The notes under the pieces are model-generated. The model ran no database searches and had not been told where the DNA came from. It saw nothing but the letters and a program-made list of their open reading frames with translations. A stretch of DNA of 37,526 nt, taken from Anaerolineales bacterium (GTDB taxonomy: Bacteria > Chloroflexota > Anaerolineae > Anaerolineales > E44-bin32). The stretch is from assembly GCA_004376465.1 (NCBI GenBank), contig SOJU01000153.1, positions 1 through 37,526 of the forward strand. The letters are read 5' to 3'. Shown here piece after piece: positions 9,768 to 29,755 of the stretch (its first letter is position 1; every line of letters begins with the position of its first letter). The position numbers and the translations under genes were made by a program.

Positions 9768-11066
9768 ATGATGACATCTACTCAAACTTCACGACTCCCT
9801 GGTTTTTATAAACTAACCATCGATGAGCGGTTAGAACGCGCCGCTGCAGTTGCGGGTCTGGATGCAAAGACCAAAGCTGCTTTTGAGAGGCTCGGTGGGC
9901 TGGAAGCGGATCAAGCCGATCATATGGTCGAAAACGTGATCGGTGTATTCGGACTCCCATTGGGTGTGGCAACCAACTTCCTGATCAATGACCGAGAAAT
10001 TCTCGTTCCAATGGCGATCGAGGAGCCTTCGGTCATCGCCGGCGCATCATTCATGGCCAAGCTCGCGAGGGGTGGTGGCGGTTTTCACGCGGAGACCACA
10101 GAGCCGCTCATGATCGGTCAGATACAGATCATGGATGTGCCTGATCTCGAAGCAGCGAAGGCCAAGATACTCGAACACCGCGATGAGATCCTCGCCGAAG
10201 TAGATCGAGTTGACCCAATGATCCTCTCCTTAGGCGGCGGTGCTCGCGACCTTGAAATTCGTATCCTTACTGAGACACCCGCAGGCCCGATGTTGATCGT
10301 CCATTTAATCTACGACACTCGAGACGCAATGGGAGCGAATGCGATCAACACCGCCGCAGAACGCCTCAGCCCAATGCTCGAATCGCTAAGCCAGGGAAGA
10401 GTACATTTAAAGATTTTGTCTAACCTGGCGGACCGTCGTCTGGCGAAAGTCACATGCACCATCCCAACGGCTGCCCTGGCTTTCGAAACATTTTCTGGCC
10501 CGAGCGTTCGCGACGGCATCATCGAAGCCTGGGCTTTCGCTGAAGCCGATCCGTATCGGGCTGCCACACACAACAAAGGGATCATGAACGGCGTGGACGC
10601 GGTAGTCATCGCCACAGGCAATGATTGGCGGGCGGTGGAAGCTGGCGCACATGCATACGCAGCGCGCTCGGGTCGGTACACATCCTTGAGCAAGTGGGGT
10701 GCGGACGAGGCTGGAAATTTGGAAGGATCCCTCGAGCTCCCTCTTGCCGTCGGTACTGTCGGCGGGGCAACGCGTGTGCATCCACTTGCAAAAGCCTGCC
10801 TGGCCCTTATGGGAGTCGAAAATGCACGCGAGCTCGCACAGGTGATCGCAGCCGTAGGACTGGCACAAAATCTCGCTGCGCTGCGTGCACTAGCAAGCGA
10901 AGGAATTCAGCGAGGCCATATGTCCTTGCACGCTCGTCAAATCGCCATCGCCGCAGGCGCCGAGGGGGATCAGATCGATCGCATTGCTGCTAAGATGATT
11001 GCCCAGGGAACGATTCATATTAAACACGCCCACGAGTTAGTGGATCAAGATCAAAACCAATCGTAA
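9768..11066 (+). CDS. mvaA: Hydroxymethylglutaryl-CoA reductase, class II/degradative type
   Basis: MVENVIGVFGLPLGVATNFLINDREILVPMAIEEPSVIAGASFMAKLAR; NKGIMNGVDAVVIATGNDWRAVEAGAHAYAAR; GTVGGATRVHPLA. Confidence 0.95.
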   Translation: MMTSTQTSRLPGFYKLTIDERLERAAAVAGLDAKTKAAFERLGGLEADQADHMVENVIGVFGLPLGVATNFLINDREILVPMAIEEPSVIAGASFMAKLARGGGGFHAETTEPLMIGQIQIMDVPDLEAAKAKILEHRDEILAEVDRVDPMILSLGGGARDLEIRILTETPAGPMLIVHLIYDTRDAMGANAINTAAERLSPMLESLSQGRVHLKILSNLADRRLAKVTCTIPTAALAFETFSGPSVRDGIIEAWAFAEADPYRAATHNKGIMNGVDAVVIATGNDWRAVEAGAHAYAARSGRYTSLSKWGADEAGNLEGSLELPLAVGTVGGATRVHPLAKACLALMGVENARELAQVIAAVGLAQNLAALRALASEGIQRGHMSLHARQIAIAAGAEGDQIDRIAAKMIAQGTIHIKHAHELVDQDQNQS

Positions 11067-11137: not shown

Positions 11138-12208
11138 ATGACTGAGGAACGCGATGAAAGGATTATGCAGCCAAAAAACCCCATCGGCTTTGTGGGGTAT
11201 GGCGCATATATCCCCCGCTACAGGCTTCCAGCTACAGAAGTAGCTAGGATATGGAAAGGTGGAGCAGCGGGAACCCCCATTGACGAAAAAGCTGTTGCCG
11301 GGCTAGATGAAGACGTCATCACGATGTCGATCGAGGCAGCCCGCAATGCTCTTGCCCGAGCGCGGATCAACCCCTCAGACATACGCGCCGTTTGGGTGGG
11401 ATCCGAATCACATCCTTATTCTGTCAAACCCACATCAACAGTCGTCGCAGAGGCAATCGGTGCAACACCACACACCCTCGCCGCGGACTGGGAGTTTGCC
11501 TGCAAGGCTGGCACGGAAGCGGTTCAGGCCGCAATTGGGTTTACGGGTTCAGGGATGGCAAGGTATGCGATGGCTATTGGGATGGACACCGCGCAGGGCC
11601 GACCTGGAGACCCACTTGAGTACACTGCGGGCGCAGGCGGTGCGGCGTATATCCTCGGCCCAGCGGATGAGTCTCTCGCCGTGGTTGAGGGATCTTATTC
11701 CTACACAACCGATACCCCCGATTTCTGGCGTCGCGCAGATGAGAAATATCCCTCACATGGTGAACGTTTCACCGGTGAGCCAGCTTACTTCCACCACATT
11801 ACATCTTCAGCTCAGGAGCTGATGAAGGCGTTGGGGACCAAGCCGGCAGATTACACGTTCGTTGTCTTCCATCAACCCAACACAAAATTCCCTCAAAGGG
11901 TTGCCAAGACCCTGGGCTTTACACCCGAGCAATTGGAAGCCGGCCTTCTTGTACCTCGCATCGGCAATGTCTACGCTGGTTCCGCCCTGGTTGGATTGAC
12001 AGCCATCCTGGACGCAGCCAAGCCAGGTGATCGGATTTTACTCGTCTCCTACGGTTCTGGCGCCGGCTCAGATGCGATGAGCCTGCATGTCACCGAGCGC
12101 ATTCTCGAAAGCCAGGAGCTCGCACCGCGCACGGAAGATTACATCAACCGTCGAACCGAGATCGATTATGCAACCTATGCCCGCTTTCGCGGAAAACTGA
12201 GCCAGTGA
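11138..12208 (+). CDS. Hydroxymethylglutaryl-CoA synthase, archaeal/bacterial type
   Basis: [46 protein letters not shown] (Cys); [20 protein letters not shown] (His). The start may be 11165. Confidence 0.93.
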
Positions 12209-12239
12209 ATACTCCCCGCCGCAAGCGACGGGGCTTCTA
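12205..12239 (-). ncRNA. Predicted 3' end of omegaRNA scaffold / right end of TnpB element A
   Basis: TAGAAGCCCCGTCGCTTGCGGCGGGGAGTATTCAC; same length (35 nt) and architecture as element B. Confidence 0.55.
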
Positions 12240-13346
12240 GGCTAAAGCCAGAGATTGTATTCCCAATCTCAAAATATTGATGGCTGCGTTCTCATCCCTA
12301 TCGAGGACTAACCCGCAAAAGGGGCATTTGTGAATACGGACAGACAAATCTTTTTCGACCAATCTGCCACAGCAAGAGCACATTTTTGTAGTGTTATGAG
12401 AATCAACCTGTACGAAATTGCGACCAGCATCTTCCGCTTTGTACGCAACAAACTGTACGAATTGTTTCCATGCGACATCAGAAATGCTTTTGTTCATGCT
12501 CCGCCAGTTGCCATCCGTCATGTCTTGAATGTCCAGCTTTTCAAAAGCAATTACGCCAAAGTTGTTCACCAATTGACGGCTGAGTTTATGGGCAAAATCT
12601 CGACGCTTGTTGGCAATGCGCCTGTGAATATGCGCTACCACTTTACGTCGTTTTGCTCGCTCGGGAGTGCCCTTATCAGCTTTGCTCAATCTTCGTTGCT
12701 CTTTTGCCAATTCGTTTTCTTCCCTACGGAAAAACCGTGGATTGTCAATCTTCTCACCGTTGGAATATGTGGCGAAACTGGTAAGACCAACATCCACACC
12801 GACAACTGTATCTATCTGCGGGAGCCGCTTTTTATCGACTCTGCACGAAAAACAAGCATACCAGTTTCCGACTCCGTCTCTCCTGATGGTCAGATTCTTG
12901 ATTTTTCCACCCATCGGTCTATGCAGTTTGATTTTCAATTCCCCAATTGTGGACAGACGAAGCCTTTTCTTATCAAGAAGAACATAACCGCTTTGAGGGT
13001 AGGTGAAACTATCGTAACGTTCTTTTCCTCGAAAACGAGGATAGCCAGGCTTTTGCCCTTTCTTTGCACGACGAAAAAAGGCCTTGAATGCAAGGTCAAC
13101 TCTGGTGCACGTTTCCTGCAAACACTGGGAGTAAGCATTTTTCAAAATGCCATGCTCCTGTTTCCAGATGGGAAGCATCTTAATCGTATCGTAGCGAGAC
13201 ACCGCTTTTTGTTCTTGCTCCCAGGCATCTTTACGAACAGCAAGAGCCTGATTGTAAACCCATCGACAGGCATCAAGCGACTTTTGCAGAGCAGATTGCT
13301 GTGCCTTTGTAGGATATAGCCGATACTTGTAAGTTCTCTTATGCAT
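12237..13346 (-). CDS. tnpB: RNA-guided endonuclease TnpB family (IS605 OrfB)
   Basis: RuvC motifs GVDVGL, FEKLDIQDM, LDRDENAAINI; zinc finger CSCCG...HKCPFCG; N-terminal YKYRLYPTKAQQ. Confidence 0.95.
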   Translation of the reverse strand: MHKRTYKYRLYPTKAQQSALQKSLDACRWVYNQALAVRKDAWEQEQKAVSRYDTIKMLPIWKQEHGILKNAYSQCLQETCTRVDLAFKAFFRRAKKGQKPGYPRFRGKERYDSFTYPQSGYVLLDKKRLRLSTIGELKIKLHRPMGGKIKNLTIRRDGVGNWYACFSCRVDKKRLPQIDTVVGVDVGLTSFATYSNGEKIDNPRFFRREENELAKEQRRLSKADKGTPERAKRRKVVAHIHRRIANKRRDFAHKLSRQLVNNFGVIAFEKLDIQDMTDGNWRSMNKSISDVAWKQFVQFVAYKAEDAGRNFVQVDSHNTTKMCSCCGRLVEKDLSVRIHKCPFCGLVLDRDENAAINILRLGIQSLALA

Positions 13347-13451: not shown

Positions 13452-14645
13452 ATGATGGCAAATAAAAACCAAAAAACCAATAACGATGTATTTATCATCG
13501 GCGTCGGGATGACACCGGTGGGAGAACACTGGGACCGCTCACTGCGCGCCCTTGCGCTTGAGGCGATGACTGCTGCGCGCGAGGAGACCGGAGCAATGCG
13601 GCCCGAGGCAATTTATGTTGCCAATATGCTCGCTCCAGCACTTTCACGCCAGTCTCACCTGGGAGCTCTTCTTGCGGATTTTTCAGGAATGCGGGGGATT
13701 GAAGCAGTCGCTATCGAAGCCGCTGGAGCTTCTGGCGGTATGGCGCTGCGGCAGGCTTATTTAGCGCTTGCTTCAGGCATGGTCAACACCGCATTGGTAG
13801 TGGGCGTGGAGAAGATCACTGAACGCGTAACTGCAGAGGTTGAAGCTGCCCTGATTACATCAAGCGATGCCGATTACGAATCGATCCACGGATTGACACA
13901 AACCGCATTGGCGGCGATGCTCATGCGGCGTTATGAGTTCGAATTCAACATCCCCGAGTACGCTTTTGCTGGTTTCAGCATCACAGCACACGCTAACGGT
14001 GCAAAGAACCCCAACGCGATGTTTCGACGACCGATCAAGGTGGAAACTTACCAAAGAGCAGCCATCCTCAGCGATCCGATAAATATGTTCGACGCCGCCC
14101 CAGTGGCTGACGGCGCTGCCGCCATCTTCCTGGCCCGCGGTGATATTCTCCCCTCAAATCTGCCTTTCCCGCCGGTTCGGATCGACGCCTCCGCCGCAGC
14201 TGTATCTACCGTCGCGGTTCACGATCGTCCAAACCCTTTGTCCTTCGCTGCAGCTGAAAAAGCGGTCAAGGTAGTCCTAGATCGAGCAAAGATCAACTTA
14301 GATCAGATTGACTTCTTTGAGGTTCATGATCGCTACTCTATCTTCGCCGCACTATCACTAGAGGCCGCAGGGTTTGCCGCCCTGGGCGAGGGTTGGAAAC
14401 TCGCTGAGAGCGGCGCGATCGCACTAAACGGACAGATCCCGATCTGCACTTTTGGTGGCTCGAAAGCCCGTGGAGATACAGGGGGCGCCACCGGCGTTTA
14501 CCAAGCCGCCGAGGCAGCGCTGCAATTGCAGGGGCGAGCCGGTGAGATACAAGTCGCGGATGCCAGGATCGGTCTGATTCAAAGCCTTGGCGGGATCGGT
14601 TCGACAGCCGCCACACACGTTCTTTCTGCCGTCGAGACCCTTTGA
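13452..14645 (+). CDS. Thiolase-like protein (archaeal/SCP2 thiolase superfamily), catalytic Cys and GHP His absent
   Basis: FIIGVGMTPVGEHWDRSLRALALEA; IEAAGASGGMALRQAYLALASG; FFEVHDRYSIFAAL; GGSKARGDTGGATG; GLIQSLGGIGSTAATHVL. Preceded by AAGGAG at 13437-13442. Confidence 0.88.
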   Translation: MMANKNQKTNNDVFIIGVGMTPVGEHWDRSLRALALEAMTAAREETGAMRPEAIYVANMLAPALSRQSHLGALLADFSGMRGIEAVAIEAAGASGGMALRQAYLALASGMVNTALVVGVEKITERVTAEVEAALITSSDADYESIHGLTQTALAAMLMRRYEFEFNIPEYAFAGFSITAHANGAKNPNAMFRRPIKVETYQRAAILSDPINMFDAAPVADGAAAIFLARGDILPSNLPFPPVRIDASAAAVSTVAVHDRPNPLSFAAAEKAVKVVLDRAKINLDQIDFFEVHDRYSIFAALSLEAAGFAALGEGWKLAESGAIALNGQIPICTFGGSKARGDTGGATGVYQAAEAALQLQGRAGEIQVADARIGLIQSLGGIGSTAATHVLSAVETL

Positions 14646-14724: not shown

Positions 14725-15126
14725 ATGGAAATAACCAGTCATTGGAGAATTAAAAAACAACGCTACGCACTGGTAGGCGAGGTGTGCCCACACTGCTCAG
14801 CGAAGATTTTCCCGCCGCGGGACATCTGCCCCGAATGCGGCGACGAGGCGAAGGATCACTACCAGTTCAGCGGACGAGGCGAAGTCTACTCGTATACCAC
14901 CCTCTATAATGCCCCTGCTGGTTATGAGGAACAGGCACCCTACACCGTCGCCATGGTTCAACTTGAGGAAGGTCCACTCGTCACCGCTCAGCTCACCGAC
15001 ATCGACGTGAAAGAACCAGAAGTGGGCATGCCCGTTGAAATGGTCACCCGCAAATTGGGTTCAGAAGGTGATCGAGGCATTCTGATTTACGGCTATAAAT
15101 TCCGCCCAGTCCTAGAGACTGCCTGA
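14725..15126 (+). CDS. Zn-ribbon/OB-fold DUF35 protein
   Basis: GEVCPHCSAKIFPPRDICPECGDE four-Cys rubredoxin-like ribbon, GRGEVYSYTTLYNAPAGYEEQAPYTVAMVQLEEGPLVTAQL OB fold; directly downstream of the thiolase-like gene. Confidence 0.9.
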   Translation: MEITSHWRIKKQRYALVGEVCPHCSAKIFPPRDICPECGDEAKDHYQFSGRGEVYSYTTLYNAPAGYEEQAPYTVAMVQLEEGPLVTAQLTDIDVKEPEVGMPVEMVTRKLGSEGDRGILIYGYKFRPVLETA

Positions 15127-15329: not shown

Positions 15330-16436
15330 ATGCGCAAGACATTTAGGTATCGACTTTTCCCGACCAAGGCACAACAAACGTCGATGCAAAAATCGTTGGA
15401 CGCCTGTCGTTGGGTATACAACAAGACGCTTGAGGTTCGCCGCGATGCATGGCAGCAAAGACAAGAATCTTTGTCCCGGTACGACACAATCAGAATGTTG
15501 CCAGGCTGGAAGGCAGAGCATTCTTTGCTCAGTGATGCATACTCTCAATGTTTGCAAGAAGCCTGCACCCGTGTCGATCTGGCTTTTCAGCACTTCTTTC
15601 GCCGCGTGAAAGCAGGAGAAAAACCTGGCTATCCGCGCTTCAAAGGTGACAGGTACAAATCTTTTACATATCCGCAGAGCGGTTTCAACCTTTCGGACAA
15701 TGGTAGTCTTCGCCTTTCCAAAATCGGCAAGGTCAGGATCAAAATCCACCGACCCATCAAAGGCGAGGTCAAAGCGCTGACTATCCGGCGTGATGTCTTA
15801 GGTAACTGGTACGCCTGCTTCTCTTGTGTTGTTGAACCTCAATTCCTATCTCCCTGCCACAGGGTGATAGGTGTCGATGTAGGGCTGAGTCATTTTGCTA
15901 CGCTGTCTAGCGGTGAGCACATTCCCAATCCGCGCTTTTTCCGTCAAGATGAAAAGGCGCTTGCGAAAGCCCAAGGCTGTCTGAGCAAATGTGAGAAAGG
16001 CACGCCTGAATATCGCAAATGCAAGCGAGTTGTCCAACATATTCATCATCGTGTTGCCGGTCGCCGTCACAATTTTGCTCATCAATTGAGTAGGCGATTG
16101 GTTAATGAGTATCAAATCATCGCCATGGAGGACTTGAACATCCAGGATATGCAAAACGGCAATTGGCGCAGCATAAACAAGAGCATCGCCGATGCTGCAT
16201 GGCGTCAATTCATAGACTTCACGGCCTATAAAGCTGAGAACGCTGGTAGGCTGTCTCCGCGAATTGATCCGGGTGGCACTACGCAAGATTGTTCCGGATG
16301 CGGTGGAATTGTCCCAAAGGACTTATCTGTCCGTATTCACAATTGTCCTCACTGCGGTCTCATTCTCGACAGAGACCACAACGCCGCTATAAACATACTT
16401 GCTCGTGGGATGGCGAGCATCCGGCTCGACCGGTAG
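15330..16436 (+). CDS. tnpB: RNA-guided endonuclease TnpB family (IS605 OrfB), second divergent copy
   Basis: RuvC motifs GVDVGL, MEDLNIQDM, LDRDHNAAINI; zinc finger CSGCG...HNCPHCG; clearly homologous to the 12237-13346 protein. Confidence 0.95.
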   Translation: MRKTFRYRLFPTKAQQTSMQKSLDACRWVYNKTLEVRRDAWQQRQESLSRYDTIRMLPGWKAEHSLLSDAYSQCLQEACTRVDLAFQHFFRRVKAGEKPGYPRFKGDRYKSFTYPQSGFNLSDNGSLRLSKIGKVRIKIHRPIKGEVKALTIRRDVLGNWYACFSCVVEPQFLSPCHRVIGVDVGLSHFATLSSGEHIPNPRFFRQDEKALAKAQGCLSKCEKGTPEYRKCKRVVQHIHHRVAGRRHNFAHQLSRRLVNEYQIIAMEDLNIQDMQNGNWRSINKSIADAAWRQFIDFTAYKAENAGRLSPRIDPGGTTQDCSGCGGIVPKDLSVRIHNCPHCGLILDRDHNAAINILARGMASIRLDR

Positions 16437-28549: not shown

Positions 28550-29755
28550 ATGACCAATAACGCAAGAGAAGCGGTAATACTCAGCGCTGCAAGAACACCT
28601 AGCGGACGTTTTCGGGGCGCACTCAGCCCCCTCAGCGCCACCCAACTTGGCGCTGCCGTGATCAAGGCGGCGGTCGAACGCGCTGGACTGAAGAACCTGG
28701 AGGACATCGACGAAACCCTGATGGGTAATGTTGTCTCTGCTGGTCTCGGGCAAGCACCTGCACGCCAAGCATCCATTTCCGCAGGCATCCCGCCCACAGT
28801 CGGTGCGACGACTGTGAATAAGGTCTGCGGTTCAGGGCTAAAAACAGGAATGATGGCCTCTCAGGCGATTAAAGCCGGAGACGGCGATCTTTTCGTTTGC
28901 GGTGGAATGGAGAGCATGAGCAAAGCTCCGTTTCTTATATGGGCGCGTGGAGGAGAGCTGCGTTACGGGCATGGGCAGATGACGGATGCTCTACTCTTGG
29001 ACGGGCTTTGGGATTCGTTTGAGGATTGGGCCATGGGCATGGCTGCGGAATGGGTCGCCGATGAATACCAGGTCACACGCGAGGCGATGGATCAATGGGC
29101 GCTCGATAGCCACTTGAAGGCGATCAAAGCGATCGATGAAGGCAAATTCAAAGCCGAAATCATCCCTTTGGAGGTGCCCGGTCGCAAGGGGAAAATCACC
29201 CTGGTTGAAGAGGACGAAACCCCGCGTCGTGATACCTCGCTCGAGATGTTAGCCAAACTTAAGCCTGTCTTTACAGCGGACGGGAAGGTGACCGCGGGGA
29301 ATTCCCCAGGCCTTAATGACGGTGCCGCAGCAGTGGTCATTTCCAGCCGAGAAAAAGCGGATGCTCTTGGAATCAAACCGATGGCTCGCATCGTTGGCTA
29401 TGCACAGGCAGCCGTTCCCCCGAAGGAATTGTTTACAGCGCCGGCTTTCGCCATCCCCAAGCTGTTAGAGAAGGTCGGTTGGGCTTTACAGGACATCGAT
29501 CTGGTCGAACTCAATGAAGCCTTTGCCGCCCAGGTTCTCGCTAACGGTTACGCGCTCGCCGATAAAGGCTGGGATTGGGACAAGGTAAATGTGAACGGCG
29601 GCGGTGTCGCCCTCGGCCACCCTATCGGAGCGTCGGGTGCAAGGGTGCTCACAACATTGCTCTATGCGCTTAGGGATCGCGGCGGCAAGCGCGGCATCGC
29701 TTCCCTGTGTCTTGGAGGTGGCGAAGCTGTCGCCATGGCCATCGAGATGGAATGA
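28550..29755 (+). CDS. Acetyl-CoA C-acetyltransferase (thiolase)
   Basis: ILSAARTPSGRFRGALSPLSATQLG; VNKVCGSGLKTGMMASQAI (nucleophilic Cys); NVNGGGVALGHPIGASGARVLTTLL; CLGGGEAVAMAIE. Confidence 0.96.
   Translation: MTNNAREAVILSAARTPSGRFRGALSPLSATQLGAAVIKAAVERAGLKNLEDIDETLMGNVVSAGLGQAPARQASISAGIPPTVGATTVNKVCGSGLKTGMMASQAIKAGDGDLFVCGGMESMSKAPFLIWARGGELRYGHGQMTDALLLDGLWDSFEDWAMGMAAEWVADEYQVTREAMDQWALDSHLKAIKAIDEGKFKAEIIPLEVPGRKGKITLVEEDETPRRDTSLEMLAKLKPVFTADGKVTAGNSPGLNDGAAAVVISSREKADALGIKPMARIVGYAQAAVPPKELFTAPAFAIPKLLEKVGWALQDIDLVELNEAFAAQVLANGYALADKGWDWDKVNVNGGGVALGHPIGASGARVLTTLLYALRDRGGKRGIASLCLGGGEAVAMAIEME

Follow-up and report, generated by a model that had tools for sequence, protein, structure and literature searches.

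An old, conserved thiolase-like protein without catalytic residues in the HMG-CoA synthase gene cluster of Chloroflexota, probably part of a new form of the archaeal-type thiolase/DUF35/HMG-CoA synthase complex

The archaeal complex of acetoacetyl-CoA thiolase, a DUF35 protein and HMG-CoA synthase is explained by channelling, in which HMG-CoA synthase pulls the unfavourable thiolase step via a shared CoA site. The complex was reportedly described by Voegeli et al. in 2018 (PNAS 115:3380) with structures deposited as PDB 6ESQ and 6ET9. In the Methanothermococcus complex, whose structure has been solved, each of the three proteins contributes residues that bind CoA at their interface (PMC6392133; PMC12329534). 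In PhlABC of Pseudomonas protegens (PDB 5M3K and 5MG5), the HMG-CoA synthase-like PhlA is without the Cys and Glu, and functional enzyme was obtained only upon expression of the whole operon (PMC6392133).

The window, the whole stretch of 37,526 nucleotides analysed here (contig SOJU01000153.1 of an Anaerolineales bacterium), encodes HMG-CoA reductase, HMG-CoA synthase, a thiolase-like protein and a DUF35 protein in that order. The thiolase, DUF35 and HMG-CoA synthase genes of the complex are thus together in this genome. The thiolase-like protein is without catalytic residues and is referred to as the pseudothiolase. The features are as follows.

9768 to 11066, plus strand: HMG-CoA reductase, first gene of the cluster (TIGR00532, 415 bits against a cut-off of 259.95)
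11138 to 12208, plus strand: archaeal-type HMG-CoA synthase (TIGR00748, 530 against 353.35 bits)
12237 to 13346, minus strand: TnpB/OrfB (IS605), between HMG-CoA synthase and the pseudothiolase (Pfam PF01385, PF07282 and PF12323)
13452 to 14645, plus strand: pseudothiolase, a thiolase fold without catalytic residues (translation, Thiolase_C_1 at 129 bits, AlphaFold2 model, structure match)
13725 to 13727, plus strand: GGA codon of Gly92, at the nucleophile Cys position of thiolases (translation)
14325 to 14336, plus strand: HDRY, the HDxF motif, residues 292-295 (among the Cys-less relatives the His is variable and the Asp invariant)
14475 to 14480, plus strand: GATACA, encoding Asp342-Thr343 in place of the His-Pro of the GHP loop (translation)
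14583 to 14600, plus strand: SLGGIG, replacing the fourth active-site loop NIGGSG (comparison at the Asn378 position)
14725 to 15126, plus strand: DUF35 protein with rubredoxin-like Zn ribbon and OB fold, presumed bridge (PF01796, PF12172)
28550 to 29755, plus strand: classical Cys-dependent acetyl-CoA acetyltransferase, presumed source of acetoacetyl-CoA (TIGR01930, 445 bits against 240.55)

Translation of the neighbouring HMG-CoA synthase revealed the catalytic Glu (GSES), Cys (FACKAG) and His (FHQPN), in accord with the original prediction, made from the window alone, that its Cys and His are kept. Comparison of loci showed that the order of genes in the HMG cluster is the same across families. 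The TnpB/OrfB gene at 12237-13346 is an insertion outside the HMG system; since only a few bp separate HMG-CoA synthase from the pseudothiolase in four congeners, the HMG operon may be interrupted in this genome. A second TnpB/OrfB (IS605) gene at 15330-16436 on the plus strand flanks the pseudothiolase-DUF35 pair on the other side.

By translation and alignment, the pseudothiolase is a full-length protein of 397 residues that aligns collinearly with archaeal-type thiolases. The nucleophile motif reads EAAGASGG where thiolases read EAACASGG, the translation around Gly92 being IEAAGASGGMALRQ. Asp342-Thr343 lies within CTFGGSKARGDTGGATG, and the stretch of the GHP loop reads GGSKARGDTGGATG where thiolases read GGLKARGHPVGATG. 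QSLGGIG stands at QNIGGSG, placing Ser378 at the position of the loop Asn. In the alignment, the solved thiolases 7yvy (Pyrococcus) and 6esq (Methanothermococcus) have the Cys and GHP or GHA at the matching positions. The replacements of Cys by Gly and of GHP by GDT, and the reading HDRY, had all been claimed from the nucleotide sequence and were reproduced by translation at the coordinates given there. The decisive losses concern the nucleophile Cys, the His of the GHP loop and the NIGGSG-loop Asn, all absent from the pseudothiolase in translation and alignment, while the HDxF His is kept here. The AlphaFold2 model had a mean pLDDT of 91.7, and the nearest solved structures were 7yvy and the thiolase chains of 6et9 and 6esq with TM scores of 0.91-0.92 by query length. 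The protein therefore has the SCP2/archaeal-type fold and the overall sequence of archaeal-type acetoacetyl-CoA thiolases, but its scores do not reach the curated NCBIfam cut-offs (368.9 against 420 for PRK06064 and 298.7 against 600 for NF053570).

Since the assembly is fragmented, missing catalytic residues could point to a decaying pseudogene or a sequencing error. The same residue changes are present in four congeners with 91-94% identity to the pseudothiolase, and the Cys is absent in 77 of 80 named relatives from public genomes, nearly all of them adjoining HMG-CoA synthase. The changes are thus conserved in related genomes, and the outcome that was to count against the original prediction, close relatives all retaining the Cys, did not hold. 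The 80 named loci belong to Anaerolineae or other Chloroflexota assemblies and include that of an isolate, Leptolinea tardivitalis YMTK-2, which has the Cys-less form. Among congeners the pseudothiolase had a dN/dS of 0.10-0.18, while HMG-CoA synthase and the reductase had values of 0.05-0.09 and about 0.10-0.11, respectively; the pseudothiolase gene is under purifying selection. These values rule out pseudogene decay, and the congeners together with the named relatives that have the same losses rule out sequencing error or recent mutation. With full-length frames as well, and one old clade across many families, a pseudogene or error has next to no chance of being the explanation. With catalytic residues gone and fold and selection retained, the protein at 13452-14645 is predicted to be a pseudoenzyme.

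In total, 134 distinct Cys-less proteins of HMG clusters were collected that span several Anaerolineae orders and Chloroflexia-looking genomes; in genomes outside Anaerolineae, proteins of this kind have SDPH or TDPH together with GDV or GDI loops. All 134 formed one group (SH-aLRT 93) in a tree of 189 rows from which the motif columns had been left out, and in a more careful 82-row tree a single branch (bootstrap 89, SH-aLRT 70) set the Cys-less proteins apart, as did 86% of the bootstrap trees. The Cys-bearing cluster members outside this pseudothiolase clade are from other Anaerolineae orders and from family f2. A single old loss of the Cys is the simplest account, short of proof, with moderate support from the trees; many independent losses are not needed, one clade fitting at that same moderate support. 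One member of the clade (L231) is extremely diverged, with a branch of 2.3 and GGGNSGRGYPTGAA, and still adjoins the genes for HMG-CoA reductase, HMG-CoA synthase and DUF35 (genome G232).

The nucleophile position in the clade (n = 134) is occupied by Gly in 108 proteins, Asp in 14, Glu in 5, Gln in 3, Ser in 2 and Asn in 2. The position of the GHP His is Phe in 54, Asn in 44, Asp in 26, Glu in 4, Tyr in 3, His in 2 and another residue in one, the His being absent in 132 of the 134. The His of HDxF is retained in 92 members and position x varies widely. The Cys, GHP His and HD His are invariant in all 39 close Cys-bearing relatives, and Asn378 is retained in 12% of the clade versus 97% of these relatives. 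Fourteen positions invariant in the Cys-bearing proteins are mostly lost in the clade, among them the Cys, the GHP and NIGGSG loops and the x of HDxF. Positions invariant in the Cys-bearing proteins were conserved in at least 90% of the clade at 50 of 73 sites outside the catalytic motifs versus 13 of 26 inside. The variation at catalytic positions together with retention elsewhere matches what a structural role predicts. Two members with Asp at the Cys position have GHP (L054/L199 of genome G051, and L232 of G256); the motif is missing in their nearest relatives, and a reversion of the His is possible.

The original prediction had offered two roles, a scaffold channelling acetoacetyl-CoA or a repurposed lyase or aldolase. 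An enzyme with a C-C lyase activity like that of Ltp2 or Sal, or with another Cys-independent reaction on a CoA thioester, would be in keeping with the continued conservation of Asp293, Glu120, Lys121 and His180 in the clade, and both Ltp2 and Sal are aldolases of the thiolase fold that have a DUF35 partner (PMC12329534). However, the Tyr required by Ltp2 at the HD-His position is present in only 9 of the 134 proteins, and two residues on, where Sal also needs a Cys, the x of HDxF is mostly Ala, Ser, Thr, Arg, Gln or Val. The Ltp2/Sal motif, YDHF or YDC(F/Y), is absent from the pseudothiolase itself, which reads HDRY. In a repurposed enzyme, invariant polar residues new to the active site would also be expected. 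The clade has no clear example, the only near-invariant residues specific to it being Ala93, Thr149 and Trp315 (92%). Moreover, the conserved neighbours are genes of the HMG-CoA pathway and not hydratases. Such a repurposing is thus quite unlikely; the lyase or aldolase half of the prediction found no support, the Ltp2 and Sal residues being absent or unconserved and the nucleophile position ranging over Gly, Asp, Glu, Gln, Ser and Asn. That the old loss of the Cys marked a change to new CoA-thioester chemistry, giving the mevalonate pathway of these bacteria an unrecognised catalytic or proofreading step in which the subunit would act on acetoacetyl-CoA, HMG-CoA or a related thioester via the conserved Asp293, Glu120 and His180, is very unlikely.

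Archaeal-type HMG-CoA synthase was found in 65 of 301 Chloroflexota genomes. A full-strength match to the thiolase family, normally adjoining, was present in all 65 genomes with HMG-CoA synthase and in none of the 236 without, a count obtained by comparing two listings by eye with only matches above about 415 bits considered. The Cys-less form is present in about 54 of the 65, genome G317 being presumed to have the Cys-bearing type. Genome G052, outside the 301-genome sample, has the reductase, HMG-CoA synthase and DUF35 genes with the pseudothiolase absent and a Cys-bearing copy only elsewhere, indicating that the pseudothiolase is replaceable; G057 looks similar. Comparison of distance matrices gave values of 0.71 for thiolase with HMG-CoA synthase and 0.63 for thiolase with DUF35 beyond the reductase, and 0.42 for thiolase with reductase given HMG-CoA synthase; these correlations with HMG-CoA synthase and DUF35 are suggestive only, as genome pairs are not independent.

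The canonical thiolase that the original prediction placed at 28550-29755 is real by its TIGR01930 score, and it is the sole TIGR01930 thiolase found in this genome (81% complete). A classical TIGR01930 thiolase was found in 81 of 82 genomes whose cluster motif was read as the Cys-less form, the lone exception being 75% complete. Where the cluster thiolase has its Cys, 5 of 12 genomes (G027, G041, G054, G095 and G193) are without a classical one. The association had a Fisher p of 8e-5, uncorrected for ancestry and resting on perhaps three lineages (f2, f16 and f19), in one of which, f16, a congener does have a classical thiolase. The distribution fits the cluster thiolase having become dispensable as an enzyme once another thiolase supplied acetoacetyl-CoA. 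The near-universal classical enzyme also bears on whether the pseudothiolase could itself be a thiolase of unusual mechanism, with a nucleophile from another residue or subunit. Fold and operon position are those of a thiolase; nonetheless the Cys, GHP His and NIGGSG Asn were lost together with varied replacements, and with a separate thiolase in 81 of 82 genomes we regard such a mechanism as highly improbable.

Alternatively, the pseudothiolase could pair with a Cys-bearing paralogue in a mixed, heteromeric thiolase and serve as its regulatory or inactive half. Many genomes hold both forms, the Cys-bearing paralogue being elsewhere in the genome, and one cluster (L059 of G011) is composed of HMG-CoA synthase, the Cys-less thiolase, DUF35 and a Cys-bearing thiolase. 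In L059 and in L062 (G021) the Cys-bearing thiolase follows DUF35, with the Cys-less protein preceding it in L059. In genomes with both forms the Cys-less protein might need an active partner; G011, and probably G021, have the paralogue in the operon itself. Against a general pairing, no close Cys-bearing paralogue was found in the pseudothiolase's own genome (assembly 81% complete) or in the Chloroflexia-like genomes, and Cys-bearing copies are usually elsewhere without DUF35, making a mixed enzyme unlikely. The solitary Cys-bearing copies had no shared theme of genomic context in two loci inspected. Two further homologues of archaeal-type thiolases in this genome (G000:C152:2982-4148 and G000:C174:14780-15973; L002-L004) are also without the Cys, reading ENGPASGG and EGGGATGG, but retain GHP.

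The probable explanation is that the pseudothiolase is a catalytically dead, structural and CoA-binding subunit of an archaeal-type thiolase/DUF35/HMG-CoA synthase complex that acts early in isoprenoid synthesis, and that acetoacetyl-CoA comes from the classical thiolase. The pseudothiolase would descend from the acetoacetyl-CoA thiolase subunit of such a complex, with decay of the active-site loops and retention of the thiolase fold, and HMG-CoA synthase and DUF35 would need it as a structural partner. Because three proteins share the CoA site, removal of the thiolase would take away part of the site of HMG-CoA synthase; loss of the protein would be harmful to that site and loss of the chemistry alone would not. 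Acetoacetyl-CoA would be made by the separate classical thiolase, here that at 28550-29755, and enter the complex from solution. The scaffold half of the original prediction is thus favoured by the ancient and conserved loss, purifying selection, co-occurrence and adjacency with HMG-CoA synthase, and the separate classical thiolase. Its wording, that the protein channels between DUF35 and HMG-CoA synthase, needs revision since DUF35 is itself presumably a bridge, and completion of the shared CoA site at the three-protein interface is the likelier role.

Overall, the protein is a real, old and conserved pseudothiolase, and it most likely belongs to a new form of the archaeal-type complex. No earlier report of such a pseudothiolase in HMG clusters was found in the open-access literature searched. 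In a large bacterial group, the genes have stayed together even though the thiolase no longer has its catalytic residues. If the proposed role is correct, the thiolase subunit has a second duty that can be separated from catalysis, either to build the CoA site or to hold HMG-CoA synthase, and this duty is strong enough to preserve it after loss of catalysis; channelling would not be the sole reason for the complex. Annotation of these genes as acetyl-CoA acetyltransferase would then be wrong, affecting pathway reconstruction and the use of the operons for isoprenoid production.

Among described proteins, the closest solved structure is the Pyrococcus furiosus thiolase PFC_04095 (PDB 7YVY; 43-44% identity), which differs in having the Cys, HDAF and GHP. 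The thiolase-like ST0096 of Sulfolobus tokodaii (PDB 4YZO) shares the archaeal-type fold and has Ser at the Cys position, but it keeps GHP and is only 27-28% identical. A second clade of Cys-less thiolase-like proteins (L070-L074, L093, L094, L211 and L224) carries Thr or Met in place of the Cys with HDAF and GHP kept; both loci checked adjoin genes for molybdenum-hydroxylase FAD subunits, one also having a CoA-transferase and the other XdhC, and altered chemistry fits this pattern better than a scaffold. The steroid aldolases Ltp2-ChsH2 and Sal-Shy (PDB 6OK1 and 9MYR; PMC12329534) also combine a thiolase fold without canonical thiolase chemistry with a DUF35 partner, but their replacement catalytic residues are unconserved in the pseudothiolase and the gene context differs. 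The archaeal complex has the same three gene families side by side and the same fold, the pseudothiolase model having a TM score of 0.92 and 34% identity to 6esq_A; it differs in that the pseudothiolase is without the Cys, GHP His and NIGGSG Asn, and acetoacetyl-CoA would have to come from elsewhere. The proposed complex would share its architecture with PhlABC, in which one of the pair of condensing-enzyme subunits is needed although it has no catalytic activity. The two would be mirror images: in PhlABC the thiolase-like PhlC is the working subunit and the HMG-CoA synthase-like PhlA the silent one, whereas here the thiolase-like subunit is predicted to be silent and HMG-CoA synthase retains its catalytic residues.
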